Below, in pieces: positions 16,605 through 64,000 of a stretch of DNA of 64,000 nt. This stretch comes from Alistipes sp. GTDB lineage: Bacteria; Bacteroidota; Bacteroidia; Bacteroidales; Rikenellaceae. The notes beneath the pieces were generated by a model. It worked only from the letters and a program-made list of their open reading frames with translations. It was not told the origin of the DNA and made no database searches. The translations under genes and the position numbers were made by a program. How positions within the stretch are numbered: the first letter of the stretch is position 1; each line of letters starts with the position of its first letter. Location: positions 24,669-88,668 of the forward strand of contig JAGBTQ010000010.1 in assembly GCA_017631275.1 (NCBI GenBank), in the 5' to 3' direction.

Positions 16605-16733
16605 AATTTGTTGTGATAAGGGGTCGATTGCGTCCCCTAACAAAAAATGCCACCAATGGGACGTACGTCAAGTACTACCCATCGGTGGCATTTTTGCCGA
16701 GTGTAGCACTCGGCGCCCTTCTGACAACAAATT
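16605..16733 (+). repeat. Palindromic 3'-end element, copy A (full length)
   Basis: 129 bp. The ends are AATTTGTTGT and ACAACAAATT. The inner arms are GATAAGGGG at the left and CCCTTCTGAC at the right. A central stem (16643-16660 with 16678-16695) has flanking A6 and T5, so it could terminate transcription in either direction. The apex is GTAC-GTCAA-GTAC. A second perfect stem, GCCGAGTG/CACTCGGC, lies at 16696-16714. The left arm faces the ssb stop codon. Confidence 0.85.
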
Positions 16734-16738
16734 TCTTT

Positions 16739-16883
16739 ATGGGTAACGCTTCGCTCGATGGGATAAATGAGTAACGCTTCGCTCGATGGGTAACGCTTCG
16801 CTTGATGGGGAATTTCCCATCTATCCCATTCGTCCCATCTATCCCATTTGTCCCATTCCCCCTATCTTCCCCTCCCCTCGCGC
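16739..16883. repeat. Degenerate 9-bp minisatellite hairpin after copy A
   Basis: Three copies of GGGTAACGCTTCGCTYGAT-like units are followed by five 9-bp units of the CCCATCTAT/CCCATTCGT type. The G-rich first half can pair with the C-rich second half. It begins 6 bp after element copy A. Confidence 0.75.
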
Positions 16884-16922
16884 AAAAAAAAATATGGAGC
16901 CACGCGAATGGCTCCATATTTA
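16884..16922 (-). terminator. Terminator of the oadA-like gene
   Basis: Perfect 12-bp stem AATATGGAGCCA (16891-16902) and TGGCTCCATATT (16909-16920). An A-run on the plus strand reads as a U-tract for the minus-strand transcript. Confidence 0.85.
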
Positions 16923-16938
16923 TTATATATAGGTATCG

Positions 16939-19281
16939 TTACTCGATAACTACCAATGGCTGATCAGCCTGAACGGTGTCGCCCTCAGCTACCAACAAGC
17001 CGAGAACCTTACCCGCGAAGTCTGATGAGATAGAGTTCTCCATCTTCATAGCCTCGAGGATCATCACCTCCTGACCAATAGTCACTGTATCGCCAGCCTT
17101 AACCTTAATCTCGATAACGCGACCTGGAAGTGGAGCATTCACGGTCTTGCCATCAGCGGCAGTAACCTTGCGCTCAGCCGAAGCCTCGCCCTCGTCCTCC
17201 ATAGAGTCGGCAACCTCGATAAGGATAGCGTCAGCCTGAACGGTGTCGCCCTCAGCAACCAAGATCTGCTTAACGAAGCCAGCATAGTCCGTAGTGATAG
17301 AGTTCTCCATCTTCATAGCCTCGAGGATCATAACCTCCTGGCCAGCAGCAACCTTATCGCCAACCTTAACCTTGAGCTCGATAACACGGCCTGGGAGTGG
17401 AGCACATACGGTCTTGCCAGTCACAGGACGCTTGCCCGCAGCTGCAGCACCAGCCTTAGCGCTCTCAATCTCAATGATGATGCCCTCAGCCTGAACGGTG
17501 TCACCCTCCTTAACAATAATCTGCTTAACCTTACCTGCGAAGTCAGATGTGATAGAGTTCTCCATCTTCATAGCCTCGAGGATAGCAACCTCCTGACCTA
17601 CAGCCACGGTGTCGCCCACCTTAACCTTAAGCTCGATAACACGGCCAGGAAGTGGAGCAACGATAGTGTCGCCAGTGATAGGCTGAAGCTCCTTAACCTC
17701 CTCCTTAGCGAGTGATGGATCTGCAGCAACCTTCTCGGCATAAGCTGCCTCCTTGATGCCAGTGAGGTAAGCCTTAGCAACCAATGGGAACAACTCCAAC
17801 AAGAGCTCCTCCTTCTCGTTCTCAGCCAAGAGCACGCCACCAGCCTTCTCCAATGTTGGGTTAGGCTGCTTCTGATACTTCGATGTGTCGTAAGGGCGCT
17901 CCTCTCTGAAGCCACAAATCTTCTCGCGGAAGTCCTCAGAGATCTTCACAGGAGTGCGACCGTAGTCACCCTTAACCAAGCCCACAAACTGAGCCGACTT
18001 GTTGGTGTACATAGCACGACCAGCCTTCTCGTCCATAGCGCAGTTTACTGCCTGAGCACCCACGATCTGTGATGTAGGCGTTACGAGTGGTGGAAGACCC
18101 GCTGCAAGACGTACTGGAGGGATAAGCTCCATAGCGCGTGGAAGGATGTCCTCAGCGCCAAGCTGCTTGAGCTGTGCCACCATGTTAGAGTACATACCGC
18201 CAGGGATCTCAGCATCCTGAACGAGCTTGTTAGGTGCTGGGAAGCCGAAGTATGCCTCGATAGCCTGTGATGCCTCCAAAAGCTCGTCCCAGTTCTCAGC
18301 CTGAGCAGCCGCTACGCATCGGTCGAGCAAAGCGTCAACCTCAGCAGGGGTAGCATCTACGAGTGGGTTGAAAGGCTTTGGAAGTGGCTTCTCTGCGCCA
18401 AATACCGACAACTCGAGCTCCTTGCGGATATCCTTGAGCTGCTCGTTGATCTTAGCCACAGCCTCCATGTTTGCGCCAAGCTCAATGCCAAGCTTCTTAC
18501 AGAAGAGGTAAACAAGCTCTACGGCAGGAGCACCTGTGCCACCACCAAACCACCAGCAGTTAGTATCTACGATATCAACGCCAGCAACGATAGCTGCATA
18601 TACTGAGCCAAGACCATAGCCTGGAGTACAGTGTGTGTGGAAATCAACAACCACGCCGAGCTCCTTCTTAAGAAGCTTGATAAGACCAGCCACGCGTGCA
18701 GGAGGAATCAAGCCCGACATATCCTTGATAGTAATCATGTCGGCGCCGAGCTCTGCCATCTGGCGAGCCTTGTCGAGGAAGTACTCGTCGGTAAATACCT
18801 TCTCGTGCTCCTCGCCGTCGTTGTACTTAGGATCTACGGTGTAACATACGGCGCAGTCAGCGATACCGCCATACTGCTTGATATACTTGATTGTTGACTT
18901 AACGTTATCTACGTCGTTCAAGGCATCGAAGATACGCATGATGCCCAAGCCGCTCTCGATAGCATTGCGCGAGAAGCCGTCGATAATCTCGTCGGTATAT
19001 GGAGCATAGCCAAAGAGGTTACGACCACGCGACAAAGCAGTTAGCTTCGACACGTCGCCCACAGCCTTCTTAATAGTCTCAAGACGTGTCCATGGGTTCT
19101 CGTTGAGGTAACGCATAACTGAGTCGGGCACTGCACCGCCCCATACCTCCATAGCGTAGAAGCCGGCATCCTTGTAGTAAGGAAGGCAACGGTCAACCTG
19201 CTGCTGAGTCATACGAGTTGCGAAAGACGACTGCTGACCGTCACGCAACGTAAGATCACGAATTTTAAGGATCTTTGTCAT
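16939..19281 (-). CDS. oadA: Oxaloacetate decarboxylase/pyruvate carboxylase B-type carboxyltransferase with three biotinyl domains
   Basis: The protein transfers carboxyl groups between a 2-oxoacid (oxaloacetate/pyruvate) and biotin. Residues 1 to about 290 are the HMGL-like TIM barrel (LRDGQQS at the start, metal-binding DFHTHCTPG near 205), followed by the PYC/OADA conserved domain to about 470. The C-terminus is exceptional: three consecutive biotinyl domains, each with APLPGRVIE and EAMKMEN, with biotin-accepting lysines near 572, 657 and 746. Members I know of carry one such domain. At 780 residues it is longer than the usual 590-650. No membrane beta/gamma subunits or biotin carboxylase are nearby, so whether it serves a sodium pump or a carboxylase cannot be told. 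Confidence 0.88.
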   Translation of the reverse strand: MTKILKIRDLTLRDGQQSSFATRMTQQQVDRCLPYYKDAGFYAMEVWGGAVPDSVMRYLNENPWTRLETIKKAVGDVSKLTALSRGRNLFGYAPYTDEIIDGFSRNAIESGLGIMRIFDALNDVDNVKSTIKYIKQYGGIADCAVCYTVDPKYNDGEEHEKVFTDEYFLDKARQMAELGADMITIKDMSGLIPPARVAGLIKLLKKELGVVVDFHTHCTPGYGLGSVYAAIVAGVDIVDTNCWWFGGGTGAPAVELVYLFCKKLGIELGANMEAVAKINEQLKDIRKELELSVFGAEKPLPKPFNPLVDATPAEVDALLDRCVAAAQAENWDELLEASQAIEAYFGFPAPNKLVQDAEIPGGMYSNMVAQLKQLGAEDILPRAMELIPPVRLAAGLPPLVTPTSQIVGAQAVNCAMDEKAGRAMYTNKSAQFVGLVKGDYGRTPVKISEDFREKICGFREERPYDTSKYQKQPNPTLEKAGGVLLAENEKEELLLELFPLVAKAYLTGIKEAAYAEKVAADPSLAKEEVKELQPITGDTIVAPLPGRVIELKVKVGDTVAVGQEVAILEAMKMENSITSDFAGKVKQIIVKEGDTVQAEGIIIEIESAKAGAAAAGKRPVTGKTVCAPLPGRVIELKVKVGDKVAAGQEVMILEAMKMENSITTDYAGFVKQILVAEGDTVQADAILIEVADSMEDEGEASAERKVTAADGKTVNAPLPGRVIEIKVKAGDTVTIGQEVMILEAMKMENSISSDFAGKVLGLLVAEGDTVQADQPLVVIE

Positions 19282-19394: not shown

Positions 19395-19453
19395 AGAGAG
19401 AAATTTGTTGCGACTTGCTACATATTGCAACTTCTCGCAACAAATTTCTCTCT
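19395..19453. repeat. Miniature palindromic element (arms only)
   Basis: A perfect 19-bp inverted repeat, AGAGAGAAATTTGTTGCGA (19395-19413) with its complement at 19435-19453, surrounds a 21-bp loop. It contains the AATTTGTTG end and the ACTTCT inner arm of the 129-bp family but lacks the central stem. A degenerate repeat region follows directly. Confidence 0.65.
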
Positions 19454-24154: not shown

Positions 24155-25051
24155 ATGGCTCTCTCACGACAGACAATAAAGACCATAGTTATGCCCCTGG
24201 CAATGGTTGTGGGCGCAATGTTGTGCCGCCCCTTGGCCCATGTCGAGGCGGCTAGTGCCAACTTGCTCACCCCCATGCTTATCGCCTCGATGCTCTTTCT
24301 CACGTTTTGCCGTATCGACCTACGCGACCTGCGCCTTAGGTGGGTGCACCTCATAATGCTTGCGGTGCAGATTGTGGGAGGTGTTGTGGTATATGTTGCT
24401 CTACGCCCTTTGCTTGGTGAGGTTGTGGCACAGGGAGCTATGATGTGTGTGCTTGCCCCTATAGCTATGGCTGCCGTAGTCATCGGCGGTATGCTCGGCG
24501 CTAAGGTGGCACCCATGGTGTCGTATAGCCTCATTTGCAACATAGTGACAGCCATTGTCCTACCGCCCATTCTCCACGCCTTTGGCAATGGCACATGCAC
24601 CTTTGTGGAGATTATCTCGCGCGTAGCACCCACGCTCATAGCCCCCTTTGTTGTGGCTCAGCTGTTGCGCTACACGCTACCTAAGGTGGCTAAGTGGTTT
24701 GCCAACCACTCCTCTTACTCCTTCTACCTGTGGCTTTTCTCGCTCGTGCTGGTCATGGGGCGCACCACAGCATTTATTATAGACACTCCTGCCGACATCG
24801 TTGTCGAGATAGAGCTTGCCCTTGTTGCCCTTCTCTTGTGTCTTGCGCAGTTTAGGCTCGGTAGATATATCGGTGAGCGCTCAGGCGATAGGGTGGCGGG
24901 AGCGCAGTCGGTGGGTCAGAAGAATACTATTCTTGCTATTTGGCTCACGCTCAACTTCCTTAACCCCATAGCCTCTATTGCCCCCACAGCCTATATCGTA
25001 TGGCAGAATTTTGTGAATAGTTATCAAATCTACCGCAAGAATTTGTCGTGA
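24155..25051 (+). CDS. BASS-family (bile acid:sodium symporter-like) transporter
   Basis: 298 residues with roughly nine to ten hydrophobic segments. The GQKNTILAIWLTLNFLNP region near the C-terminus matches the conserved crossover helix of BASS transporters, and the N-terminal half has the paired helices expected. BASS proteins move organic anions such as bile acids, pantoate or 2-oxoacids with sodium; the substrate here cannot be told. The last residues (YRKNLS) and the TGA stop are encoded by the first bases of a 129-bp palindromic element, so the native C-terminus seems to have been replaced. A tandem stop TGATAA is provided by the element. Confidence 0.75.
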   Translation: MALSRQTIKTIVMPLAMVVGAMLCRPLAHVEAASANLLTPMLIASMLFLTFCRIDLRDLRLRWVHLIMLAVQIVGGVVVYVALRPLLGEVVAQGAMMCVLAPIAMAAVVIGGMLGAKVAPMVSYSLICNIVTAIVLPPILHAFGNGTCTFVEIISRVAPTLIAPFVVAQLLRYTLPKVAKWFANHSSYSFYLWLFSLVLVMGRTTAFIIDTPADIVVEIELALVALLLCLAQFRLGRYIGERSGDRVAGAQSVGQKNTILAIWLTLNFLNPIASIAPTAYIVWQNFVNSYQIYRKNLS

Positions 25052-25168
25052 TAAGGGGTCGATTGCGTCCCCTAACAAAAAATCCCGACAATGAGCAGTA
25101 CTTCGAGTACAGCCCATCGTCGGGATTTTTGCCGAGTGTAGCACTCGGCACCCTTCTGACGACAAATT
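25040..25168 (+). repeat. Palindromic 3'-end element, copy B (full length)
   Basis: 129 bp. The ends are AATTTGTCGT and ACGACAAATT: compared with copy A, both arms changed together. The central stem uses TCCCGAC/GTCGGGA where copy A has TGCCACC/GGTGGCA, while the flanking A6, CCCATC and T5 and the GCCGAGTG stem are conserved. The apex is GTAC-TTCGA-GTAC. The first 12 bases are coding for the transporter. Confidence 0.87.
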
Positions 25169-25174: not shown

Positions 25175-25332
25175 CGCTGATTGAGGTGGTAGATTAAGGA
25201 GTTTAGTGAATTTAATGAATTTAGGGAGTTTAGTGATAGTCTTTCCCTAAGTTCCCTAAATTCCCTAAATTCCTTATTCTCCCTATCTTCCCTATTCTCC
25301 CTGCCGTCCTTGCCGTCCCTGCTCTCCCCTCG
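25175..25332. repeat. Degenerate 9-bp minisatellite hairpin after copy B
   Basis: The leader CGCTGATTGAGGTGG is followed by purine-rich units (GAATTTAGG, GAGTTTAGT) and then pyrimidine-rich units (TTCCCTAAA, TCCCTATCT), so the halves can pair. It begins 7 bp after element copy B. Confidence 0.75.
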
Positions 25333-25368
25333 CAAAAAAAAAGAGAAGTCGCTGTTGCAACTTCTCTC
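25333..25368 (-). terminator. Terminator of the YitT-miaB transcript
   Basis: AGAGAAGT (25342-25349) pairs with ACTTCTCT (25360-25367), next to a plus-strand A9 run that is the U-tract on the minus strand. It lies just downstream of the miaB stop. Confidence 0.75.
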
Positions 25369-28872: not shown

Positions 28873-30663
28873 ATGAAGAATATTCGCAATTTCTGTATTA
28901 TTGCACACATCGACCACGGCAAGAGTACCCTTGCTGATAGACTCCTCGAAAAGACTAACACGCTGAACCAGCGCGAGATGCAGGCTCAGGTGCTCGACGA
29001 TATGGATCTCGAGCGCGAGAAGGGTATTACAATCAAGAGCCACGCCATTCAGATGGAGTATAAGGCTCGTAATGGCGAGCAATATACACTCAACCTTATC
29101 GACACCCCAGGACACGTTGACTTCTCTTACGAGGTGTCGCGAGCTATCGCCTCGTGCGAGGGCGCACTGCTTGTTGTCGATTCAACACAGGGTATTCAGG
29201 CGCAGACCATCTCTAACCTCTATCTTGCCCTCGGTCAGGATCTTGAGATTATCCCCGTACTAAATAAGATTGACTGCGAGTCGGCTATGGTCGATGAGGT
29301 CAAGGATCAGATTATCGACCTTATAGGCTGTAAGGACGAGGATATCTTGTTGGCATCGGGCAAGACAGGCCAGGGCGTCGAGGATATTTTGGAGGCTATT
29401 ATTGAGCGCATTCCAGCTCCTAAGGGCGACCCTGAAGCACCTCTCCAGGCCCTTATCTTCGACTCGGTGTTCAACCCATTCCGTGGCGTTATCGCCTACT
29501 TCCGTGTATTCAACGGCACTATCCATAAGGGCGAGCATGTTAAGTTTTTCAACACTGGCAGCGAGTACGATGCCGACGAGATTGGTGTTTTGAAGCTTAA
29601 GATGGTTGCGCGCAACGAGATTAAGGCGGGCGACGTAGGTTATATCTGCTCGGGTATCAAGAACTCGACAGACGTGAAGGTGGGTGATACCATCACCTCG
29701 GTGGCAAATGCTGCTACGGAGGCTATCGCCGGCTTCGAGGATGTTAAGCCTATGGTCTTTGCGGGTGTCTATCCCGTTGAGGCCGACCAGTATGAGGATT
29801 TGCGTGCCTCGCTCGAGAAGCTTAAGCTCAACGATGCGTCGCTCACGTTCGAGCCTGAGAGCTCGCTTGCCCTCGGCTTCGGCTTCCGCTGTGGCTTCCT
29901 CGGCTTGTTGCACATGGAGATTATCCAGGAGCGCCTATATCGCGAGTTCGACATGGACGTTATCACCACCGTGCCTAACGTGTCGTACCACATCACAACT
30001 ACGCAGGGCGAGGAGCTCGAGGTGCACAACCCCTCGGGACTACCAGAGATTACTAAGGTGGCAAAGATTGAGGAGCCATATATCCTTGCGCAGATTATCA
30101 CCAAGGCTGACTTCCTCGGCAACGTCCTTAAGCTATGTATCGATAAGCGTGGTGTGATGAAAAACCAGACCTTCATCACGCAGGATCGCGTTGAGGTTAA
30201 CTTCGAGATGCCTCTCTCGGAGATTGTCTTCGACTTCTACGATAAGCTCAAGAGCATCTCTAAGGGCTACGCCTCGTTCGACTACCACCGCACGGGCTAC
30301 CAGATTTCGAAGCTTGCGAAGCTTGATATTCTGCTCAATGGCGAGCCTGTCGATGCCCTCTCGTCACTTATCTATGCCGACCATGCCTACGACTTCGGCC
30401 GTAAGATGTGCGAGAAGCTAAAGGAGCTTATCCCACGCCAGCAGTTCGACATCGCTATCCAGGCGGCTATCGGCGCTAAGATTATCGCTCGTGAGACTGT
30501 TAAGGCTGTGCGTAAGGACGTTACGGCGAAGTGTTATGGCGGTGATATCTCGCGTAAGCGTAAGCTGTTGGAGAAGCAGAAGGCGGGTAAGAAGCGTATG
30601 CGTCAGATTGGCTCAGTACAAGTTCCGCAGTCTGCCTTCCTTGCAGTTCTCAAAATGGACTAA
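28873..30663 (+). CDS. lepA: Elongation factor 4 (LepA)
   Basis: 596 residues, normal length. A ribosome-bound GTPase related to EF-G that back-translocates or remodels stalled ribosomes. The GTPase motifs are present in order: AHIDHGKST near 11-19 (G1), [11 protein letters not shown] (G2), DTPGHVDF (G3) and NKIDCE (G4). LepA-specific C-terminal sequences ([41 protein letters not shown]) close the protein. The final TAA is fused to the left end of a deleted palindromic element (TAAATTTGTTG), which may replace the original terminator region. Confidence 0.97.
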
Positions 30664-30724
30664 ATTTGTTGTGATAAGGGCGCATCTTCGGCACCAAGCT
30701 CACTGCCCCTTCTAACAAGAAATT
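30663..30724 (+). repeat. Palindromic 3'-end element, copy C (internal deletion)
   Basis: 62 bp. The left arm AATTTGTTGTGATAAGGG and right arm CCCCTTCTAACAAGAAATT are intact, but the central GTAC hairpin is missing. The left end overlaps the lepA stop codon. The outermost bases of the two arms no longer match (GTT against AAG), unlike in most full-length copies. Confidence 0.8.
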
Positions 30725-40173: not shown

Positions 40174-40302
40174 AATTTCTTGTTAGAAGTGGTTAGATAC
40201 AACGCTCGGCGAATTTCGAGGCGATGGGCTGTACTCAGGCGTACTGCCCATTGCCGAGATAATTCGTTAGCGGCAGTAGATGACCACTTATCACAAGAAA
40301 TT
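40174..40302 (-). repeat. Palindromic 3'-end element, copy E (full length)
   Basis: 129 bp, read on the minus strand from the secA stop. The ends are AATTTCTTGT and ACAAGAAATT. The central stem is CTCGGC...GATGGGC with GCCCATTGCCGAG, with a short insertion, and the apex is GTAC-N6-GTAC. The stop side shows a partial repeat (TAATTTCTTG then AATTTCTTGTG), as also seen beside copy A. There is no degenerate minisatellite on its far side. Confidence 0.85.
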
Positions 40303-40309: not shown

Positions 40310-43300
40310 TTATAGTTTGCCGTGGCAATGCTTGTACTTCTTACCCGAGCCACAAGGACATGGCTCGTTACGGCCTACCGACTTATCAACCTTGATAGGT
40401 GCGGTCTTGCCCCTCTCGCCCTGACCTGCGGCAGCTGCGGCAGCCATGCGTGACTCCTGAAGCTTGTTCACGTCAATCTTGCGGCGCTGCTCACGAGCCT
40501 CCTCAACGTTGTTCTCGCGAAGAGCAATGCCCGACTTATTGGTCAATGCCAACACCGTGCGGTTGATATCCTCGAGCATCTTGGCAAAGAGCTGGAACGA
40601 CTCGAGCTTGTAGATAAGGAGTGGATCCTTCTGCTCGTATGTAGCATTCTGTACGCTCTGGCGAAGGTCGTCCATCTCGCGGAGGTGCTCACGCCAAGCG
40701 TCGTCGATGGTGGTGAACATAGCCACCTTAGCAAATATACGGTAGATCTCGGCGCAGTCGGTGTCTTTGCACTTCTGCAACTCAACAGGGATAGAGTAGC
40801 GCAAGCGACCATCGGTGATAGGAAAGGCGATGCGCATATCCATGTTATTCTCACGATCCTTGTAGATCTTCTCCATCGTTGGGCGCACCATGTCGGCAAT
40901 AGCCTTGGTCTTGCGTGCGAAGTGGTTGGTAAGATCCTCGACAATGGTGTCGATAATCTGCTTTGGCTTCATTGCGTCGAACTGTGCCTCGTCGATAGAT
41001 GGCTCGATAGCCACCTCGCGCATAAGGTCGAACTTAAACTCCTCGAACGAGCAGCCCTCGTGGTTCTCAACAAACTTAAGGGCGTAGTCCTGACGGAGGT
41101 TGTTTAGGTCGATGTCGATACGCTCGCCATAGAGAGCATGGCGACGACGTGTGTAGATAACCTCACGCTGCGAGTTCATAACATCGTCGTACTCCAACAG
41201 GCGCTTACGCATGCCGAAGTGGTTCTCCTCAACCTTCTTCTGTGCACGCTCGATAGCCTTTGTCATCATGCCTGCCTGGATAACCTCGCCCTCCTTAAGA
41301 CCCATCTGGTCCATCATCTTGGCGATACGGTCAGAGCCGAAGAGGCGCATGAGCTGATCCTCCAACGATACGAAGAACTGTGATGAGCCTGGGTCACCCT
41401 GACGTCCTGCACGACCACGTAGCTGACGATCTACACGACGGCTCTCGTGGCGCTCGGTGCCGATGATAGCCAAACCACCAAGCTCCTTAACCTCTGGCGA
41501 GAGCTTGATATCGGTACCACGACCCGCCATGTTGGTAGCGATGGTTACCTGACCACGGCGACCTGCCTCGGCAACAATCTGTGCCTCGAGCTGGTGCTGC
41601 TTAGCATTCAACACGTTGTGCTTGATGCCACGAAGCTTAAGCATACGGCTCAAGAGCTCCGAAATCTCGACTGAGGTGGTACCCACCAACACAGGACGAC
41701 CCTCCTCAACGAGGCGCTCAATCTCTGCGATAACGGCGTTGTACTTCTCGCGTGCGGTCTTATATACGAGGTCCTCGCGGTCGTCGCGAATAACCTTCTT
41801 GTTTGTAGGAATTACAACAACATCGAGCTTGTAGATGCTCCAGAACTCCGATGCCTCGGTCTCGGCAGTACCGGTCATACCCGCGAGCTTGTGGTACATA
41901 CGGAAGTAGTTCTGAAGAGTAATTGTTGCGAAGGTCTGCGTAGCATCCTCCACCTTTACATTCTCCTTAGCCTCGATAGCCTGGTGCAAGCCGTCAGAGT
42001 AGCGACGACCTTCCATGATACGGCCTGTCTGCTCGTCAACGATCTTCACCTTATTATCGATAAGCACATACTCAACCTCCTTTTCGAACATGAAGTATGC
42101 CTTGAGAAGCTGGTTCATGGTGTGCACACGCTCAGCCTTAATGGCGTAGTCGGCCAACAAGGCATCCTTCTGCTCGGCACGCTGCTCGGGCGTAAGCTCG
42201 CCATTCTCGATCTCGGCAATGCGAGCGCCGATGTCGGGAAGCACGAAGAAGCCCTCCTCGTTGAAGCGCTTTGAGGCAACCTCGTGACCCTTATCTGTGA
42301 GGATAAGAGAGTTTAGCTTCTCGTCGTGGATAACGAAGTTGTCGTCGGTAATCTCGTGCATGCGCTTCTCGTTATCCTGCATGTAGAAGTTCTCGGTCTT
42401 CTGCAACAACACCTTTACACCAGGTTCCGATAGGAACTTGATGAGTGCCTTATACTTAGGCATAGCCTTATAGGCGCGAAGCAGGAGCTTACCTGCCTCG
42501 AGGTGGTCGCCCTCGTTGAACAGACGCTTAGCCTCGGCAACATCCGATGACGACATCTTGCTCTGAAGGTCATAGATATACTTTGCTGCAGGCTGATACT
42601 CGGCAAAGAGCTGGTCGCCACCCTTAGGTACAGGACCTGAGATGATAAGTGGCGTACGTGCATCGTCGATAAGCACTGAATCGACCTCATCGACAATGGC
42701 GAAGTGGTGCTTGCGCTGCACAAGGTCAGATGGTGACGATGCCATGTTGTCGCGCAAGTAGTCGAAACCAAACTCGTTGTTAGTACCAAACGTAATATCT
42801 GCCATGTATGCCTTGCGACGCTCCTCAGAGTTAGGGCGTGTGTTGTCGATACATGCTACCGATAGGCCGTGGAACTGATACATAGGACCCATCCACTCGG
42901 CATCACGACGTGCAAGGTAGTCGTTCACGGTAACCACGTGAACACCCTTGTGAGCCAAGGCATTGAGGAATACTGGGAGTGTTGCCACGAGGGTCTTACC
43001 CTCACCCGTAGCCATCTCGGCGATACGTCCCTTGTGCAAAACAACGCCACCAAAGAGTTGTACGTCGTAGTGAACCATATCCCACTTGATGACATTACCA
43101 CCAGCAGTCCACTCGCTGCTATAGATAGCCTTGTCGCCCTCGATAGTCACCAAGTCCTGGCGCTGGGCTGCAAGGTTGCGGTCGAAGTCGTTAGCCGTAA
43201 CTACCACAGTGTCGTTCTCGGCAAAGCGGCGTGCTGTATCCTTCATAATGGCGAAGGCCTCAGGGAGAATCTCCTCGAGCTTCTGCTCAATCTTCTCGTC

Positions 43301-43594
43301 GATGCGCTTTGTCGTGTCGTCAATATCTTTTGATATGCGCTCCTTGTCTGAGAGCGATGTCTCGGCAAGCTCGAGCTTAGCCTTCTGCTCGATGATGTGC
43401 TGCTCGTCGCCAGCAATGAAGTCGGCAATCGACTTGCTTAGCGCTGCTGAGCGAGCACGAAGCTCGTCGTTTGAGAGCGCAGAAATCGAGGGGAAGATAG
43501 CCTTGATCTTCTCAACATAGGGCTGAATCTCCTTGCGATCCTTATCGGCCTTTGAGCCGAAAATGAGCTTAAGAATTTTTGATGCTATATCCAT
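40310..43594 (-). CDS. secA: Preprotein translocase ATPase SecA
   Basis: 1094 residues, typical for Bacteroidota SecA, which are longer than the roughly 900 residues of E. coli SecA. Walker A ([14 protein letters not shown]), the DEAD-like [20 protein letters not shown], the helicase motifs GRGTDIKLS and [20 protein letters not shown], and the C-terminal zinc-binding [12 protein letters not shown] are all present. It drives polypeptides through SecYEG with ATP. It has its own promoter (43645-43675). Its stop codon is followed within 8 bp by palindromic element copy E. Confidence 0.97.
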
Positions 43595-48687: not shown

Positions 48688-49281
48688 ATGAGAGTGTTGA
48701 TTTGTGCGCCTACGTCACGTGAGTATCGTGCCATGCGCTACGCCTTGGATAAGGCTCAGAGTCTCAAGCATAGCTACGACCTTGTAGAGGTGGGTATCGG
48801 CAAGGCACTCTCCTCGGCAGGTGTAGCTCGTGCCCTAACCCTTGCTCAAGATAAGTACGACATGTTGGCTGTTGTGGGCTTCGCTGCCTCTGCCCTCGGT
48901 CGTAAGCAGGGCGATATCGTGATGCCATCACGTGCCATTCACCACGACGCTATCATTCCTGAGGGATTCTGCCCCGAGATTACCGACCCACGCATGTTGC
49001 GAGGTACCGACCCTGAGACAGTATTTACGGGCGACTCGTTCGTGAATGCAGACATCATTCGTGAGATTAAGAGCCGCTTTGGTGTTGAGTGTGGCTTGTT
49101 CGACATGGAGATAGCAGCAATCTGCCAGGTGGCTGAGCTCTACGACAATATCCCCGTGGTGGCAGTCAAGTACGTATCTGATGTTCCCGAGGAGGGCCAC
49201 TCCGAGCACTCGTATGATGAGTTTGCGGATGCGCATTCAGATTTTACGCCGTTGTTGCTACGCTTAGAGAATTCATTGTAA
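48688..49281 (+). CDS. mtnN: MTA/SAH nucleosidase-like protein (Pfs/MtnN type)
   Basis: 197 residues of the purine-phosphorylase/nucleosidase superfamily, slightly shorter than typical MtnN (about 230). VEVGIGKALSSAGVARAL and VVGFAASALGRKQGDIVMPSRAIHHD correspond to the substrate-binding glycine-rich region. FDMEIAAICQVAE carries the conserved Met-Glu pair that binds the ribose, and VVAVKYVSDV the region of the catalytic Asp. MtnN cleaves adenine from SAH to make the LuxS substrate. Coupling to luxS by a one-base gap strongly supports this role. Its TAA overlaps the first base of palindromic element copy D. Confidence 0.85.
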   Translation: MRVLICAPTSREYRAMRYALDKAQSLKHSYDLVEVGIGKALSSAGVARALTLAQDKYDMLAVVGFAASALGRKQGDIVMPSRAIHHDAIIPEGFCPEITDPRMLRGTDPETVFTGDSFVNADIIREIKSRFGVECGLFDMEIAAICQVAELYDNIPVVAVKYVSDVPEEGHSEHSYDEFADAHSDFTPLLLRLENSL

Positions 49282-49411
49282 ATTTCTTGTGATAAGGGGT
49301 CATTCTCGGCCCATCACTAAAAGTAAGACCCCTCGGGCTGTACTTTAAGTACTATCCCGAGGGGATCTTCTTTTGTGATAGCCCAAGCCTAACCCCTTCT
49401 AACAAGAAATT
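49281..49411 (+). repeat. Palindromic 3'-end element, copy D (full length)
   Basis: 131 bp. The ends are AATTTCTTGT and ACAAGAAATT, with GATAAGGGG and CCCCTTCTAAC inside. The central stem is AAGACCCCTCGGG with CCCGAGGGGATCTT, and the apex GTAC-TTTAA-GTAC. Nearly identical to copy F read on the minus strand. The left end overlaps the stop codon of the nucleosidase gene. Confidence 0.88.
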
Positions 49412-49414: not shown

Positions 49415-49750
49415 TAGTGGTGCTGATTGAGGTGGGCAGGAGCATAGGGGAGATAGGGACGCTTCGCTTGATGGGAGCGCTTCGCTTGATGGGGGTGATG
49501 GGTAACGCTTCGCTTAATGGGAGCGCTTCGCTTGATGAGGATGATGGGTAACGCTTCGCTTAATGGGAGCGCTTCGCTTGATGGGGGCGATGGGTAACGC
49601 TTCGCTTGATGGGGGTGATGGGTAACGCTTCGCTTGATGAGAATTTCCCATTTATCCCATTTATCCCATTCGACCCATCTTTCCCATAAAATAAACCCCG
49701 TGCGAAGCACACCTTACCTTTCACCTTTCACCTTTCACCTCTCACCCCCC
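49415..49750. repeat. Long degenerate minisatellite after copy D
   Basis: The leader TGCTGATTGAGGTGGGCAGG is followed by about ten units of AGCGCTTCGCTTGATGGG/GGTAACGCTTCGCTTGATG, then 9-bp CCCATTTAT units, then a block GTGCGAAGCACACCTTAC and 7-bp CACCTTT units. This fills most of the 528-bp gap between convergent genes; no gene is seen in it. Confidence 0.8.
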
Positions 49751-53974: not shown

Positions 53975-54207
53975 AGGGGAGGGCGGAGGGGAAAGGTGAG
54001 AGGGGAAAAGTGAAAGGTGAAAAGGGAAAAGTAAGGTGTGCTTTGCACGAGGTTTGTTTTGGGATAGATGGGACGAATGGGATAAATGGGGAAGATAGGA
54101 AGAATAAGGAATTTAAGGAACTTAGGGAACTTAGGGAAAGACTGTCACTAAACTCCCTAAATTCATTAAATTCACTAAACTCCTTAATCTACCACCTAAA
54201 TCAGCGC
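53975..54207. repeat. Degenerate minisatellite beside copy F (inverted orientation)
   Basis: Reading the minus strand from 54207: the leader GCGCTGATTTAGGTGGTAG, 9-bp TAAACTCCC-type units, a block GTGCAAAGCACACCTTAC, and CACCTTT-like units. It has the same order of blocks as at 49415-49750. An apparent plus-strand ORF through it (NSLNSLNSL) is a by-product of the 9-bp period. Confidence 0.75.
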
Positions 54208-54210
54208 ACT

Positions 54211-54340
54211 ATTTCTTGTTAGAAGGGGTTAGGCTTGGTCTATCGCAAAAGAAGACCCCTCGGGATAGTACTTAAACGTACAGCCCGAGGGGTCTTACTT
54301 TTAGCGATGGGCCGAGAATGACCCCTTATCACAACAAATT
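54211..54340 (-). repeat. Palindromic 3'-end element, copy F (full length)
   Basis: 130 bp, oriented with the minus-strand gene. The arms are ATTTGTTGTGATAAGGGG and CCCCTTCTAACAAGAAAT, the central stem AAGACCCCTCGGG/CCCGAGGGGTCTT, and the apex GTAC-GTTTAA-GTAC read on the minus strand. It overlaps the stop codon of the cysteine-desulfidase-like gene. Confidence 0.87.
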
Positions 54341-55646
54341 ACTTGGAGGTCATGATCTTAAGAATCATCGCATCAGTATGCGTCATCGCATCGCGGCCGA
54401 TGTCCGTAAGGTTGCTGATTGACTTATCCACGTCGTCGTCGATGATGCCCTCTACCGACTTCACGCAGCGGTTGTGCATAGCCATAAGTGCCGACACAAC
54501 AGCCGTAGATACGCCCGATGCACACTTCATGGCGCACGATGGCTTAGCACCGTCGCAGATCATACCCGTGAGGTTGGCAATCATATTCTTAACAGCCTTT
54601 GTAACCTCCTCGTAGCCACCGCCCATAAGGTAGGTGATACCGCACGATGAGCCTGTTGCTGCCACCACGCAACCACACAATGCTGATAGGCGACCGAGGC
54701 TCTGCTTGATGTAAATCACTGTAAGGTGGCTAAGTATTAGCGAGCGTATCATCTGCTCCTCCGAGGCGTTTGTCTGCTCGGCATATACCACCACAGGGAC
54801 TGTCGATGTAAGACCCTGGTTACCACTTCCCGAGTTACTCATGACTGGGATCATGGCGCCTGCCATACGTGCGTCGCATGCCGCTGTTGTCATGCCCACA
54901 ATCTGGCAATGTAGCGTGTCGCCCATGATGTTGCGCTCCGACTCCGAGCGGAAGAGGCGACCTATAGAGTGGCCGTAGTCGCCCTTGAGCGACTCGTAGG
55001 CTGCGTTCATGTTAAGACGCTTAGCCTCAAGGATAAAGCGTAGCTCGTCGAGGGGTGCTGTTGTGGCAAAGTCCCACACCTTGCGTAGTGTGAGCTCAGG
55101 ATCCTTTGGCTCGGCGCTTGTCGATGTGGCATCAGTGCTTGCCTCAGTAGTCAATGAGAAGCGTACCTCATCGTTGTATGCCACGTGTACAAAGCGTGTG
55201 TGACCGCCCGAGATAATGGCTACAGCACGGTTGCCCGCTGCCGACACCTCAATCTCGATATATAGCTTCTCGGTGATGTCCTCTTTGAGTGATACTGCTA
55301 TACGCTTCTCGTCGATAAGTTTGCAACCCTCCTTCACTGCCTCCTGGTCGGCATCCTTGAGTACCTCGAGTTCGTACTCCGACTTGCCGATAAGGGCACC
55401 AAGAGCCATTGCGATAGGTAGTCCTGTCATGCCTGTGCCGGGGATACCCACGCCCATAGCATTTTTGAGCACGTTGGCGCTCAGGCGTGCCTCAATCCTC
55501 TCGGGACGTGTGCCGAGAGTCTCGGTAGCCTTAGCCACGCACAATGCCACAGCAATAGGCTCGGTACAGCCGATAGCAGGAATAATCTCACGATTCATAA
55601 GAGCGATAATCTCACGACGCTCCTCGGGTGTAAACTGATAGTTCAT
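54339..55646 (-). CDS. UPF0597 / L-cysteine desulfidase-like (serine dehydratase alpha fold)
   Basis: 435 residues. Cysteines expected to hold an Fe-S cluster are in [12 protein letters not shown] (Cys27), [11 protein letters not shown] and [33 protein letters not shown] is another family signature. The group, called UPF0597 and related to YhaM/CyuA, is homologous to the alpha chain of Fe-S L-serine ammonia-lyase. Characterised members break down L-cysteine to pyruvate, ammonia and sulfide. The reaction in this organism is inferred. It is transcribed towards gyrA, with 584 bp between that hold palindromic element copy F and a minisatellite. Confidence 0.88.
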
Positions 55647-55783
55647 ATATCGTAGTTTTAGTTAAAAGCACATTAATCATACGAAGATACATAAAAATTG
55701 GAAAAATGCCAAATGCGAAGGCCTATTTTTTAATAATATGTGAAAAAAGCGGGGTGGTGGGGCGAAAACTCAATAAATTTCAC

Positions 55784-55791
55784 TATCTTTG
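55784..55791 (+). promoter_or_regulatory. -7 box of deoD promoter
   Basis: TATCTTTG 43 bp before the deoD start; no clear -33 box. It lies within the longer open frame upstream of deoD and therefore supports the internal ATG at 55835. Confidence 0.5.
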
Positions 55792-55834
55792 TATGGATAT
55801 AGGATATTGTATAACACTTAAAACAGATAATATC

Positions 55835-56548
55835 ATGGCAGGAAAAGTACCTACTCCTCACATCGGAGCACAATATGGCGAGATCGCCGACAGAGTAATC
55901 ATGGCGGGCGACCCACTACGCGCTAAGTTTATGGCTGAGAACTTCTTGGAGAACCCCGTGCAGTATAATAACGTGCGTGGCATGCTCGGATATACCGGCA
56001 CCTACAAGGGCAAGCGCGTGTCGGTGCAGGGTCATGGCATGGGTATCCCATCTATCGGCATCTACTCTTACGAGCTCTTCAATTTCTACGACGTGAAGCG
56101 CATCATTCGTTGTGGCTCGGCAGGCGCCTTCGACCCATCGCTAAACCTCGGTGACGTGGTCTTTGGCGCAGGCTCATGCACAGACTCAAACTATGGCAGT
56201 CAGTTTAACCTTCCAGGAACATTTGCTCCTATCGCCGACTTCGAGCTGTTGCGTGCAGCAGCTGAGAAGGCTGAGGAGCTTGGCATACCCTATAAGGCTG
56301 GTAATATCCTTGCCAGCGACGTATTCTATGGCGACGATGCCGAGAGCTGGAAGCAGTGGCAGAAGATGGGTGTCTTGGCTGTCGAGATGGAGGCTACCGC
56401 CCTCTATATGAACGCTGCACGTGCGGGCAAGAGTGCTCTCTGCATCTGCACTATCTCCGACTCACTCGTGCATGGCACAGCGTGCTCAGCCGAGGAGCGC
56501 CAGACCTCATTTACCAATATGATGAAGATTGCTTTCGACATCATCTAA
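55835..56548 (+). CDS. deoD: Purine-nucleoside phosphorylase DeoD
   Basis: 237 residues, the exact length range of the hexameric bacterial enzyme, from the ATG at 55835. DeoD splits purine (deoxy)nucleosides with phosphate in nucleoside salvage. [21 protein letters not shown] near residue 20 holds the phosphate-binding Gly-Asp-Pro-Arg loop. [10 protein letters not shown] and [13 protein letters not shown] (base and ribose contacts) and [10 protein letters not shown] (catalytic Asp) are all present. The TAA stop overlaps palindromic element copy G. Confidence 0.95.
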
Positions 56549-56678
56549 TTTATTGTGATAAGCCGCAATCTGCGGCACATCGCTAAAAGTAAGACCCCTC
56601 GGGCTGTACGTTTCAGTACTATCCCGAGGGGATCTTCTTTTTCGATGCACCACATCTCACGGCTTCTAACAAGAAATT
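56547..56678 (+). repeat. Palindromic 3'-end element, copy G (full length)
   Basis: 132 bp. The ends are AATTTATTGT and ACAAGAAATT, with GATAAGCCG and CGGCTTCTAAC arms: here even the G4/C4 of other copies is replaced on both sides (GCCG/CGGC). The central stem is AAGACCCCTCGGG/CCCGAGGGGATCTT, and the apex GTAC-GTTTCA-GTAC. Overlaps the deoD stop. Confidence 0.87.
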
Positions 56679-56679
56679 T

Positions 56680-56724
56680 ATTTCCCGCGATAGCGGCGCA
56701 TCAGCAACCCTTCTCGCGAGAAAT
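56680..56724 (+). repeat. Miniature palindromic element directly after copy G
   Basis: 45 bp: ATTTCCCGCGATAGCGG on the left and CCCTTCTCGCGAGAAAT on the right, keeping GATA and CCTTCT inner arms but no central stem. It follows copy G by one base. Confidence 0.6.
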
Positions 56725-56728
56725 TAGT

Positions 56729-57030
56729 GCGCTGATTGAGGTTGGCAGGGGCATAGGGTAAATAGGAAAAATGGGGATAATAGGGATAATAGGGAAGTGA
56801 TACCCTCGCCTTATTTTCCCTATTCTCCCTATCTTCCCTATCTTCCTTATCTTCCTTATCGTCCCTCGTCCTATTCTCCCTATTTTCCCTATTCTCCCTA
56901 TTCTCCCTATTCTTCCTATCTTCCTATCTTCCTTATCTTCCCAATCGTCCCAATCTTCCCTAATCTCATTCCTCACTCCTAATTACCCCCCCCGTTCAAA
57001 GCACACCTAACTTTTCCTCTTTCACTTTTC
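56729..57030. repeat. Degenerate 9-bp minisatellite after copy G
   Basis: The leader GCGCTGATTGAGGTTGGCAGG is followed by purine-rich GGGATAATA units, then many TCCCTATTC/TCTTCCTTA units with a 9-bp period, and the tail TTCAAAGCACACCTAAC plus CTTTCAC-like units. No gene is visible between 56549 and 57082. Confidence 0.75.
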
Positions 57031-60791: not shown

Positions 60792-61452
60792 AGCCTGTAC
60801 GTGTTATAATGTTATTACCATATTCTCCTAATTTCTTGCGCATGCGTGTTATGTTCACGTCGATGGTGCGGTCGAGGACTATCTCGCCACTCCAGGCGTG
60901 CTGCATAATCTGTTCGCGACTAAGTATTGTGCCGCGCGACTTGAGCAGTAGTGCCAATATCTCAAACTCCTTGCGTGTGAGCGATATCTCCTCGCCCGCA
61001 ATGGTGCAGCGCTTGCGCTGGGTGTTGAGCTCCAGCGTGTTATAAACAATCGTGCCCTCATCTTGGGGTGGGGTGCTACGCTGCGAGCGACGTAGTACGC
61101 TACGCACACGTGCCAAGACCTCGGCAACAGAGAAGGGCTTAGATATATAGTCGTCGGCACCGATATCAAGGCCCTTAATCTTGTCGCTCTCGCCATCGAG
61201 GGCCGAGCAGAAGATGATAGGTGTGGTGGCGGTATCCTCCCTCTCGCGTACAATCTTAGCCAAGCCAAAGCCACTAAGCTCGCCCATCATCACGTCTAGA
61301 ATCATCAGGTCGAACTGCGCCAAGTCGAGCGCAAGGGCACTCTCGGCGCTATGCTTGGTGATGACATCGTAGCCGGCACGCTCAAGGTTAAACTTGAGAA
61401 TCTCGCACAACGACTCCTCGTCATCCACGACCAATATGCGGAACTTGTTCAT
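60769..61452 (-). CDS. OmpR/PhoB-family response regulator
   Basis: 227 residues from the ATG at 61452; the longer open frame upstream crosses the predicted promoter. The receiver domain has VVDDEES with the acidic pocket, phospho-acceptor Asp53 in LMILDVMMGE, and Lys in DYISKPFS. The C-terminal winged helix has LTRKEFEILALLLKSRG, REQIMQHAWSG, RTIDVNITRMRKKLG and TRTGYGYGF. This is the PhoB/OmpR layout. Direct repeats in the adjacent phosphate transporter promoter are the likely binding site. Transcribed ahead of the kinase gene. Confidence 0.88.
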   Translation of the reverse strand: MNKFRILVVDDEESLCEILKFNLERAGYDVITKHSAESALALDLAQFDLMILDVMMGELSGFGLAKIVREREDTATTPIIFCSALDGESDKIKGLDIGADDYISKPFSVAEVLARVRSVLRRSQRSTPPQDEGTIVYNTLELNTQRKRCTIAGEEISLTRKEFEILALLLKSRGTILSREQIMQHAWSGEIVLDRTIDVNITRMRKKLGEYGNNIITRTGYGYGFEA

Positions 61453-61510
61453 ATGTTTTATAATGTTGTTGGGGGCGGTGTGCAAAACGGCTCGCACACC
61501 TTTACTAATA

Positions 61511-61541
61511 CAAATATAACGCAAATTTTGTAAATAGCAAA
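61511..61541 (-). promoter_or_regulatory. Promoter of the response regulator/kinase pair
   Basis: Minus strand: TTTG (complement of 61538-61541), 19 bp, TATATTTG (complement of 61511-61518). Full consensus match. Confidence 0.75.
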
Positions 61542-61588
61542 CGCCCAAAACAGAAAAAAAATGTTGGGTGATAGTGAAAAAAGTGCAT

Positions 61589-61625
61589 TTTGTAACAAGT
61601 TTGTAACAATCATTTCATAAATTTG
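61589..61625 (+). promoter_or_regulatory. Pho-box-like direct repeat and -7 box before the PiT gene
   Basis: TTTGTAACAAG (61589-61599) and TTTGTAACAAT (61600-61610) form an exact 11-bp tandem repeat; a weaker third half-site TTTCATAA follows. TAAATTTG at 61618-61625 is the -7 box. The repeats occupy the place of the -33 element, as expected for a PhoB-activated promoter. Confidence 0.65.
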
Positions 61626-61646
61626 TAGTCGAGAAACATCTTTTTT

Positions 61647-63857
61647 ATGGATCTATTTATAGTCATCACCCTCGCACTTCTTGCGGTAATGGGTATCATT
61701 GTCGGTGTCTCGAACGATGCCGTAAACTTCCTTAACTCAGCTTTTGGCTCGAAGGTAGCCAAGAAAAATGTAATCCTCTCGGTGGCAGCCATAGGTGTCA
61801 TGGTGGGTGTAATGACCTCGAGCGGCATGATGGATGTGGCACGTAGCGGTGTCTTCTATCCCGACAAGTTTAGCTACGAGGAGATTATGATTTTGTTCCT
61901 CGGCATGATGCTCTCGAACATCATCCTCCTGGATATCTACAACTCGCTGGGCTTGCCTACATCAACCACCGTGTCGTTGGTCTTTGGCTTGCTTGGCTCG
62001 GCACTCGCCCTGGCGCTATACAACGTCTGGAGTGGTAACTCAGAGTACAGCATTGGCGAGTATATCAACTCGGGTAATGCCCTTGCCATAGTCTCGGGTA
62101 TCCTACTCTCGGTGGTGCTGGCATTCTTCTCGGGACACCTGCTGATGTACATATCACGAGTGATATTCTCGTTCCGCTATCATAAGATCTTCAGCCGCTT
62201 TGGTGCCATGTGGTGCGGTATTACGCTTGCCGGCATCATCTTCTTTGCGGTGTTCAAGGGTCTTAAGAGCTCGGGACTTGTGCCTCAGGAGCTTATAGCC
62301 TATGTCAACGACAATACTGCACTTTCGTTGCTAATATTGTGGGTGGCAAGCTCGCTCTTCTTGTGGGTGTTGCAGCTTCTCAAGGTGAACATCTTGCGTG
62401 TGTCAATCCTCGCAGGTACATTCTCTCTAGCCTTGGCATTTGCGGGTAACGACCTTGTTAACTTTATCGGTGTGCCTTATGCAGGCTACGACTCATACGT
62501 GCTTCAGCAGGCAAGCGCCGAGCCTATCCAGTCGATGGCGGCATTGTCAAACCCTACAAAGGCTAACTTCCTTATCATGTGTGCTGCGGGCTTGGTTATG
62601 GTCATCACGCTCTTCACGTCGAAGAAGGCTATGCGCGTTATCGAGACCGAGCGTAAGCTATCGTCGCAGTCTGAGGAGGTGCCTATCAATAGCGATGCTA
62701 CGGTGGCAGCACGAGGCATTGTGCGTGGTGCACGTGCCCTAAGCGAGGCTATAAATTCCATTATCCCTCGCCGTGTGAACGACTGGATTGAGAGCCGCTT
62801 TGAGCCACTCCCAGAGGAGGAGCGTGGCGACGTGAACTACGACCTTATCCGCGCTACGGTGAACCTAACAGCAGCAGCCATTCTTATCTCGATAGGTACA
62901 CAGCTTAAGCTCCCATTGTCTACTACATACGTGGTGTTCATGGTATCTATGGGTACATCGCTTGCCGACCGCGCATGGGGTCGCGAGAGTGCCGTATATC
63001 GTATCACCGGTGTGACAACAGTTATCATGGGTTGGTTTATCACCGCTGTGGGTGGCTTCGTCATTGCCCTCGGTGTAACCCTAATATTGGTATATGGAGG
63101 TAAGATTGCCATCATCGTGGTGACACTCATCTGCCTTGGCCTTATCATCAAGAGCAACGTAAAGGGCGAGAAGCAGACCAAGGAGGTTGAGGAGTCGGCA
63201 GTGGCAAAGATTGGCGACGCCCTTAAGAAGAGCCCTGAGGAGGCACTTATCGCCTACACCGAGCATGTGTGTGCGTCGATGGAGAAGGTGACGTTGATAT
63301 ACGATCGCACCATTGTTGCCGTGTTCAAGGAGAACCGTAAGGTGCTTAAAGATATGGTGCGCGAGGCCGAGGAGTTCTACCACTCTACACGCCAGCAGAA
63401 GTATGAGATTATGCCTTTGTTGCGCACGCTACAGGATAGCGACGTGAGCACAGGCCACTACTATGTGCAGGTTGTGGACTACATCTCGGAGACAAGCAAG
63501 GCACTGCTCCATATCACTCGCCCATGCTACAAGCATGTGGACAACAACCACACAGGACTCTCTAAGGAGCAGGTCTATGATCTTAAGCGCATCAACGACC
63601 GTGTAGAAGAGATCTTCGGCGAGATTAACACCATGCTCCGCACCCGTTCGTTCGACAGCATGGAGAAGGTGCTCAACATGCGTGACGAGATGTTTGACCT
63701 TATCGACGAGGTTATGCAGAACCAGCTACGCCGCCTACGTGACACTGGTGGCTCATCATCTGCAAATATGCTCTTCTTCAACATCTTGACAGAGACCAAG
63801 ACGATGATTCTCCACTCACGAAATATTATGAAGTCTTTGGAGCACTTCGTCCATTAA
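61647..63857 (+). CDS. PiT-family inorganic phosphate transporter with PhoU-like C-terminal domain
   Basis: 736 residues. The PiT signatures appear twice, as in the family's inverted repeat: GVSNDAVNFLNSAFGSKVA near residue 20 and FAGNDLVNFIGVPYAGYDSY near 270. GLPTSTTVSLVFGLLG and LPLSTTYVVFMVSMGTSLADRAWG are the matching second motifs. About twelve membrane helices reach to roughly residue 510. The last roughly 220 residues are a helical PhoU/DUF47-like domain (ALIAYTEHVCASMEKVTLIYDRTI). It is divergent from a two-component system, with Pho-box-like repeats upstream. The TAA stop overlaps palindromic element copy H. Confidence 0.93.
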   Translation: MDLFIVITLALLAVMGIIVGVSNDAVNFLNSAFGSKVAKKNVILSVAAIGVMVGVMTSSGMMDVARSGVFYPDKFSYEEIMILFLGMMLSNIILLDIYNSLGLPTSTTVSLVFGLLGSALALALYNVWSGNSEYSIGEYINSGNALAIVSGILLSVVLAFFSGHLLMYISRVIFSFRYHKIFSRFGAMWCGITLAGIIFFAVFKGLKSSGLVPQELIAYVNDNTALSLLILWVASSLFLWVLQLLKVNILRVSILAGTFSLALAFAGNDLVNFIGVPYAGYDSYVLQQASAEPIQSMAALSNPTKANFLIMCAAGLVMVITLFTSKKAMRVIETERKLSSQSEEVPINSDATVAARGIVRGARALSEAINSIIPRRVNDWIESRFEPLPEEERGDVNYDLIRATVNLTAAAILISIGTQLKLPLSTTYVVFMVSMGTSLADRAWGRESAVYRITGVTTVIMGWFITAVGGFVIALGVTLILVYGGKIAIIVVTLICLGLIIKSNVKGEKQTKEVEESAVAKIGDALKKSPEEALIAYTEHVCASMEKVTLIYDRTIVAVFKENRKVLKDMVREAEEFYHSTRQQKYEIMPLLRTLQDSDVSTGHYYVQVVDYISETSKALLHITRPCYKHVDNNHTGLSKEQVYDLKRINDRVEEIFGEINTMLRTRSFDSMEKVLNMRDEMFDLIDEVMQNQLRRLRDTGGSSSANMLFFNILTETKTMILHSRNIMKSLEHFVH

Positions 63858-63984
63858 TTTGTTGTGATAAGGGGTCATCTTCGACCTATCCCCAAATTGA
63901 GCACCCGAGGCTGTACGTTTGAGTACTATCCTCGGGTGCTCACTTTTGCGATAAGCCAAATCTAACCCCTTCTGACAACAAATT
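63856..63984 (+). repeat. Palindromic 3'-end element, copy H (full length)
   Basis: 129 bp. The ends are AATTTGTTGT and ACAACAAATT, with GATAAGGGG and CCCCTTCTGAC inside. The central stem is GAGCACCCGAGG with CCTCGGGTGCTC, and the apex GTAC-GTTTGA-GTAC. It overlaps the transporter stop codon. Confidence 0.87.
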
Positions 63985-64000
63985 ATTTCTTGTGATAAGG
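63985..64000 (+). repeat. Start of a further palindromic element, cut by the window end
   Basis: ATTTCTTGTGATAAGG begins directly after copy H and equals the left arm of copies D and E. The rest lies beyond the window. Confidence 0.65.

Follow-up and report, generated by a model that had tools for sequence, protein, structure and literature searches.

Hairpin cassettes at the 3' ends of genes in an Alistipes genome, with sites held and bodies exchanged between two species

ERIC and Correia elements measure about 100-150 bp and are accompanied by a TA duplication. They are short, have inverted ends, lie mostly between genes and occur in many copies (PMC10969869); REP and REPIN sequences with their RAYT are likewise palindromic, intergenic and numerous (PMC3733652). 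Two further systems are found at gene ends, namely the integron attC site, a palindrome situated just behind a stop codon in fixed orientation and with its bottom strand favoured (PMC2727003), and SPRITE of Streptococcus pneumoniae, a repeat family near gene 3' ends for which the authors suggest co-option as terminators (PMC3049150). HMP2_4205, a candidate palindromic structured RNA of Bacteroidetes with a predicted terminator, is similar in length (132 bp) to the element reported here, as far as its description allows the comparison (PMC8040213). The present work concerns a palindromic element that recurs in a 64,000-nucleotide stretch (the window) of an Alistipes sp. genome (assembly GCA_017631275.1, contig JAGBTQ010000010.1, positions 24,669 to 88,668 of the forward strand). 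On the best reading its copies constitute a new family of hairpin cassettes among the short palindromic intergenic repeats, integron-like in placement and strand preference and, by analogy, behaving like a repeat co-opted at gene ends, for which SPRITE would be the closest precedent; to our knowledge, this set of features is not found in any described family.

A strict two-arm pattern, with the left arm written as TTTSTTGTGATAAG and the right arm as CTTCTRACAASAAA, gave 67 matches in the host genome (G000; 1.92 Mb in 32 contigs, 87.5% complete), and its reversed-pattern control gave none. Placement relative to genes was assessed with open frames standing for genes, a same-strand frame of at least 80 codons being required to end between -40 and +17 of the left end. 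By this rule, array-first copies stood at a same-strand stop codon in 61/62 cases in G000, 40/41 in G074 (the second species of the comparison below) and 107/120 at other loci, a total of 208/223, compared with 17/223 (10, 3 and 4, respectively) for the control of an opposite-strand frame at the right end. The left end lay at the stop codon or no more than 12 bases from it in 61 of the 62 array-first copies of G000. An offset of exactly 0 was seen in 132 copies (48 in G000, 28 in G074 and 56 at other loci), and in 15 of the 208 the frame ended at a TGA within the left arm (offset +10). The copies are therefore placed at stop codons in a fixed orientation and not scattered at random, giving strong support to the earlier note's description of them as a 3'-end module.

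The cassette is about 127-130 bp long, and fuzzy copies (n = 173, two of them unrelated viral matches) spanned 113-131 bases, all but one being at least 124. Its outer stem of approximately 10 bp consists of TTGT and six positions outward, inside which two conserved mismatches (G with R, T with C) interrupt an arm that is otherwise near-invariant; the arms are near-identical over about 17 bp. Further inward lie a second stem and then a long central hairpin (mean -25.5 kcal/mol) with a short loop. Pairs of the consensus were changed on both sides at 15 of 27, and the outer S pair was C-G in 129, G-C in 124, T-A in 13 and A-T in 7 of 306 distinct cores. The two viral matches came from a strict-pattern search of viral_contigs (L140, L141) and were rejected, bearing no resemblance to the element by eye; they were kept in the fuzzy-copy counts and the lone-arm scan and left out of the anatomy, array, mirror, U-tract, fold, placement and orthologous-end terminator counts.

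Between species it is the site that is held, while the content changes. Orthology was assessed in one species pair (G000 and G074), in lepA across 30 loci and at five window loci in two to four relatives, all genomes being draft assemblies and G074 about 89% complete. The coding flanks of G000 and G074 are 91% identical. An orthologous coding end was present among the fetched G074 loci for 48 of the 66 array-first copies of G000, and in G074 these ends carried a parsable copy in 46 cases, a truncated copy in one and a remnant in one. Most G074 loci had been fetched because of a strict copy, and a bias check was made on 13 of 30 unmatched G000 sites; G074 had the coding end in all 13 cases and an element in 12, a variant copy in 11 and the truncated copy in one. 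Identity between orthologous bodies averaged 0.736 and was at least 0.9 in 12 of the 46, compared with 0.683 and 10% for random pairs, and 44 of the 46 G000 bodies were closer to another G000 copy than to their G074 ortholog. The best match at a non-orthologous G074 site had a median identity of 0.960. From these identities it was concluded that the stock of bodies is common to both species and that its assignment to sites is largely reshuffled. Orthologous sites mostly lack the same sequence by descent, so the outcome that the earlier note had named as telling against a mobile family, plain terminators by descent, did not occur. Its proposal of a non-autonomous mobile element survives in part: near-identical copies are spread within the genome, but sites are fixed between the two species as their contents change, and the fetched loci revealed no autonomous partner.

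Nor do the ends and the loop simply travel with the body, since near-identical bodies often differ in them. Among G000 bodies at least 99% alike (30 non-independent pairs) the S pair agreed in 40% and the loop in 30%, compared with 36% and 3% for body pairs under 85%; in G074 both figures were 33%, from only 6 pairs of bodies at least 99% alike.

At lepA, 10 of the 14 loci with at least 95% LepA identity had a copy with both arms at the stop codon (that of G000 lacking its centre), and the others had a left arm only (one), a body remnant (one) or nothing (two); none of the 16 less similar loci carried the element (by eye, with 30 of 59 matching places covered). A tRNA-Gly gene (anticodon ccc) was observed behind lepA in L157, L158, L162, L165, L166 and L174, of which only L157 also has an element at the lepA stop codon.

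Within the window, all nine places listed in the earlier note proved to be present, as seven full copies, one deletion copy and one copy interrupted where the window ends. Scores from a covariance model derived from 36 diverse copies, with the window copies excluded and some members drawn from the host genome, were 97-111 bits for the full copies and 54 bits for the deletion copy. The positions given earlier mostly hold, but the minus-strand copy runs from 54210 to 54340, and 63985-64000 is the left arm of a tandem neighbour. The features are as follows.

16605..16733, plus strand: full copy, subfamily B, behind the ssb-type gene 16058-16594
25040..25168, plus strand: full copy, subfamily B; open frame 24155-25051 stops at a TGA within its left arm
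30663..30724, plus strand: copy with its central part lost, at the stop codon of the lepA gene 28873-30663
40174..40302, minus strand: full copy, behind the secA gene 40310-43594 (minus strand)
49281..49411, plus strand: full copy of subfamily A at the stop codon ending gene 48688-49281
49417..49435, plus strand: conserved motif of GTGCTGATTGAGGTGG type, right of the element
54192..54209, minus strand: conserved motif of GTGCTGATTGAGGTGG type, behind the minus-strand copy
54210..54340, minus strand: full copy of subfamily A at the stop codon ending the minus-strand serine dehydratase alpha-chain gene 54339-55646
56547..56678, plus strand: full copy of subfamily A at the stop codon ending gene 55706-56548
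56679..56726 (about), plus strand: degenerate mini copy, directly 3' of the full copy, judged by eye
56727..56744, plus strand: conserved motif of GTGCTGATTGAGGTGG type, behind the mini copy
63856..63984, plus strand: full copy of subfamily A at the stop codon ending the PHO4-type gene 61647-63857
63985..64000, plus strand: left arm of a second, tandem copy that the window end truncates

The genes that precede these copies thus include ssb, lepA, secA and serine dehydratase types. The copies carry no gene, as had been stated, yet the one at 25040 provides the stop codon of the open frame upstream of it. The fimbrial region was indeed free of copies, none being detected in 1-16,604 by the covariance model (E up to 1); a weak 45-bp match lay at 19402-19446 (E 0.034 on the plus strand, 0.06 on the minus strand). 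The G074 ortholog of the lepA-end copy is of full length, a mini copy like that at 56679..56726 is also present in G074 (by eye), and the copy at 54210..54340 has a mismatched outer S pair (G/G). Just before the 16605 copy, 16595-16604 resembles the scar of an older left end, and at the secA end a second partial left end lies between the stop codon and the copy. The GTGCTGATTGAGGTGG-type motif, 16-20 bp long, was found right of the last copy in many arrays; as ATTTCTTG sometimes precedes it, this motif may be a decayed left arm.

The outer arms of about 10 bp are complementary locus by locus. Complementarity of the outer S pair was found in 94% of 250 array-first copies, compared with 43% when right flanks were permuted, and left-base departures from the majority were mirrored on the right in 21 of 37 cases at position 4 (1.5 expected) and in 17 of 44 at position 5 (4.0 expected); from position 6 outward, no mirroring above chance was detected in these 250 copies. 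In two other families of the order, six related copies (L305-L310, five from G387 and one from G321) keep the inner signature with outer arms of a different sequence, mostly distinct from locus to locus, and each sits at the end of an open frame. Five different outer stems occur among the six, each with 9-11 perfect pairs (by eye), and the final codons of the frame itself form the left side in three of the G387 copies. Either the right arm is copied from the left, or selection restores the pairing very efficiently. The hairpin foot, TTT|S, fits a RuvC consensus of (A/T)TT|(G/C) quoted in a passage of PMC9601230; this is offered as a suggestion only, and other RuvC proteins are said there to prefer other sequences.

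Base pairing is better preserved on the bottom strand, which is antisense to the gene. Comparison of outer positions 0-3 with arm positions 0-3 yielded 46 C.A cells and 3 G.T cells; a sense C.A is an antisense G.U, and the antisense strand therefore folds better. Computed with RNA energies, its fold was the more stable in 115 of 123 non-redundant copies, and with DNA energies in 121 of them, the RNA-energy difference between strands averaging -13.2 kcal/mol toward antisense compared with -3.4 (sd 4.2) in dinucleotide shuffles, and wobble pairs stood at 4.2 against 0.5 between the strands. The commonest loops never occur as their own reverse complements (by eye), and inversion was for this reason rejected as a source of loop variation.

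Arrays of at least two copies showed a clear polarity. The stop-proximal copy had perfect arms in 20/20 arrays in G000 and 20/20 in G074, and the last copy was more mismatched than the first in 18/20 and 14/20, respectively (pooled over the 40 arrays, 32 more, 8 equal and 0 fewer); in 26 arrays of other species, the last copy was more mismatched in 18, equal in 4 and less so in 4. The S pair was complementary in 238/253 array-first copies compared with 47/64 displaced copies, the 15 and 17 mismatched pairs being mostly G/G or C/C (20/32). Partial left-end scars were seen by eye upstream of some copies, at secA, ssb, L235 and others, and at secA in G074 a new element appeared by eye to be joined to the right remnant of an old one. 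The distal copy at locus L001 is common by descent (0.97, compared with 0.78 for the best match elsewhere), and the proximal copies there differ.

The relationship to ordinary terminators was examined at gene ends that a crude rule classed as unit-terminal. Of 24 such ends in the window, 8 had an element, counting the end at 25051 that the script had missed (7 without it), 8 had a hairpin with a T run within 100 nt, 8 (corrected from 9) had neither, and none had both. Orthologous ends that lack the element in G020, G021 and G024 had a hairpin with a T run within 150 nt in 6/6 cases, the best hairpin at the serine dehydratase end of G021 needing 5 T in 8 instead of 6; a seventh orthologous end, that of G021 at 56547, carried a truncated remnant and no hairpin with a T run. 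Judged from these sequences, the element appears to replace the ordinary terminator yet not to be a canonical terminator itself by plain criteria. The cassette would then do the job of a transcription terminator, so that an occupied site would keep needing one.

The reading that we tentatively prefer is that cruciform-forming hairpin cassettes of approximately 127 bp occupy gene 3' ends in place of ordinary terminators and are renewed by replacement at the stop codon. Each new cassette would enter at the stop-proximal edge as a complete unit whose ends match, through the action of the folded bottom strand, and older ones would be pushed downstream, truncated by arm-arm recombination and left to decay. 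The right outer arm would be made or renewed by copying the left arm and the gene end in a fold-back synthesis, and the replacing enzyme is probably supplied in trans. A number of results weigh against this. No such enzyme and no clean pair of empty and filled sites were found, nor was any target duplication, the flanks pairing as inverted repeats to position 5 and not beyond. The terminator finder that was applied to the element-free ends reported nothing in 8/9 element-bearing orthologous ends over 150 nt (7/9 at 5 T of 8), its single match being a hairpin at the gene end itself; the U tracts are modest, with at least 6 T in the 8 bases after the central hairpin in 81 of 228 copies and exactly 5 in 125 (mean 5.3 compared with 4.2 after shuffling), and a terminator scan of 45-64 kb revealed no excess (15 found, 14.1 expected). 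A plain sense-strand terminator has no need of the antisense-strand pairing preference. Polarity alone could mean that selection maintains the first copy only, and insertion at the stop-proximal edge draws on polarity and a few loci, because distal copies are clearly shared by descent at L001 and not clearly so in other arrays.

It is also possible, though we regard it as doubtful, that the pattern reflects concerted evolution, with RecA ectopic gene conversion through the shared arms swapping bodies and no dedicated mobility system at work; each copy may be a hotspot of conversion as a result of cruciform extrusion and breakage. The near-identity of the arms and the free mixing of bodies agree with this, as do the partial left-end scars and the gain or loss of tandem copies, and a preponderance of G/G and C/C among mismatched S pairs is as expected of arm recombination. 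Conversion that ends within the arms should, however, have left many more mismatches than the 15 in 253 array-first copies, the S pair being only a few bases inside the edge of homology, and it does not readily account for bodies at least 99% alike that share the S pair and loop in so few of the G000 pairs. An unlikely scheme is that of a cassette whose ends are rewritten from the host gene, in which the DNA would be cut at the foot of the extruded hairpin, where the RuvC-type consensus fits, the right arm resynthesised by fold-back copying of the gene's last bases, and the bodies passed between gene ends by a recombination system that acts on the folded bottom strand and has no relation to RAYT or integron integrases. 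The stability of the antisense fold (115/123) and its use of G-U pairs would suit an antisense regulator or structured RNA that is read from the opposite strand in the direction of the gene and has its 3' end at the stop codon; we consider this improbable, as the bottom strand is the more stable one for single-stranded DNA too (121/123), so that RNA is not required, the dinucleotide shuffles lean slightly antisense too, and no promoter was identified, albeit without a systematic promoter search. Least credible of all, and in our view very improbable, is that a DDE or Y1 transposase mobilises the cassettes as a classic MITE or REP family. The inverted ends, the abundance of near-identical copies and the lack of coding capacity are as expected of such a family, but the strict gene-end placement and the pairing of the flanks as inverted and not direct repeats speak against it, as do the transposase and lone-arm searches reported below.

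Should renewal of terminator-replacing cassettes at the stop codon prove correct, gene ends would be plug-in modules whose function stays while the module is replaced much faster than the neighbouring coding sequence changes. Orthologous sites would then offer a natural system in which to read ectopic exchange, hairpin extrusion and gene-end function, and locus-specific mirrored arms, antisense-strand wobble and stop-proximal renewal would be statistical signs to seek in other repeat families.

Comparison with the systems introduced above, HMP2_4205 apart, established no membership. The cassettes are REP-like in being palindromic, numerous and intergenic, but not in the strict sense of a RAYT/Y1 transposase and a GTAG tag, and REP/RAYT membership was rejected: Y1 transposase (PF01797) had 0 matches in G000, Y1_Tnp was found in 2/180 genomes of the genus (G086 and G087), both without a match to covariance model R1, and a GTAG/CTAC tetranucleotide in or beside the arm occurred in only 9/318 copies. 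The cassette is also about three times longer than a REP, which is given as 20-40 bp in PMC3733652. Terminal inverted repeats, a MITE feature, are present, with the two conserved mismatches. A scan of 1.53 Mb of fetched loci for an autonomous element gave 36 lone left and 63 lone right arms and 0 spans of 300-6000 bp between them, DDE families not being searched for; array linkers such as TA, TAA and TTA fit several models (by eye). With neither a parent nor a direct duplication found, MITE membership is unproved. Despite placement at the stop codon in 208/223 cases, membership of attC was rejected, as its R'' (RYYYAAC) and R' (GTTRRRY) boxes were absent from all 286 copies on either strand; unlike attC sites, moreover, the cassettes accompany core chromosomal genes on both strands. 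SPRITE has an 18-bp stem with a U-rich tract, and no stop-codon registration, body exchange or mirrored ends are described in the available portion of PMC3049150. The cassettes differ from ERIC and Correia elements, as portrayed in part of PMC10969869, in their exact stop-codon placement and in their fixed sites with changing content, and no TA duplication could be shown for them. A retro-mechanism was rejected, a reverse transcriptase apparently not being needed everywhere: RVT_1 was found in 61/180 genomes of the genus, with none in G000 (87.5% complete) and G074 (about 89% complete) not among the matching genomes. An origin from a phage or plasmid was also rejected, one copy searched against a plasmid collection and another against a phage collection having given no match. 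The earlier note's failure to recognise a named family was borne out by 0 Rfam covariance-model matches at gathering score in the window, and no description of the cassettes was found in the literature by title or abstract start, most subscription journals being outside this scope and the supplement of PMC8040213 being a place that could hold one.

The strict pattern was found in at least 109 stretches of genome_contigs, and among the 80 matches listed all were titled Alistipes sp. or Rikenellaceae bacterium, the listed Alistipes sp. matches coming from cattle, sheep, goat, deer, buffalo or yak hindgut. It was present in 7 of 61 relatives (G000 counted), all of one genus. Covariance model R1 matched 115/180 genomes of the genus, with at most 19 candidates scored per genome, and 2 genomes outside it in an order sample of 295 that included G000, with at most 11 candidates per genome and stricter filters; loci were mostly found through the strict pattern, and diverged copies are under-sampled accordingly. 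Contig ends often fall on elements, and the repeats may break the assembly; contigs C21, C23, C28 and C32 of G000 end within a few hundred bases of one. It is unlikely that exchanged bodies are assembly errors, as reads of about 150 bases (an assumed length) would span an element.

Short-period minisatellites were observed 3' of several elements in the window, with a period of 9 bp in several (25245-25338, 49459-49641, 56791-56979 and 16808-16877). They consist of a purine-rich stretch followed by a pyrimidine-rich near-complement, and similar arrays, which may form long hairpins, lie behind many copies at other loci. Separately, the open frame 16939-19281 contains, at 16944-17682, three 217-nt direct repeats, which match the reference copy at 73-78% and begin at intervals of 255-267 bp.

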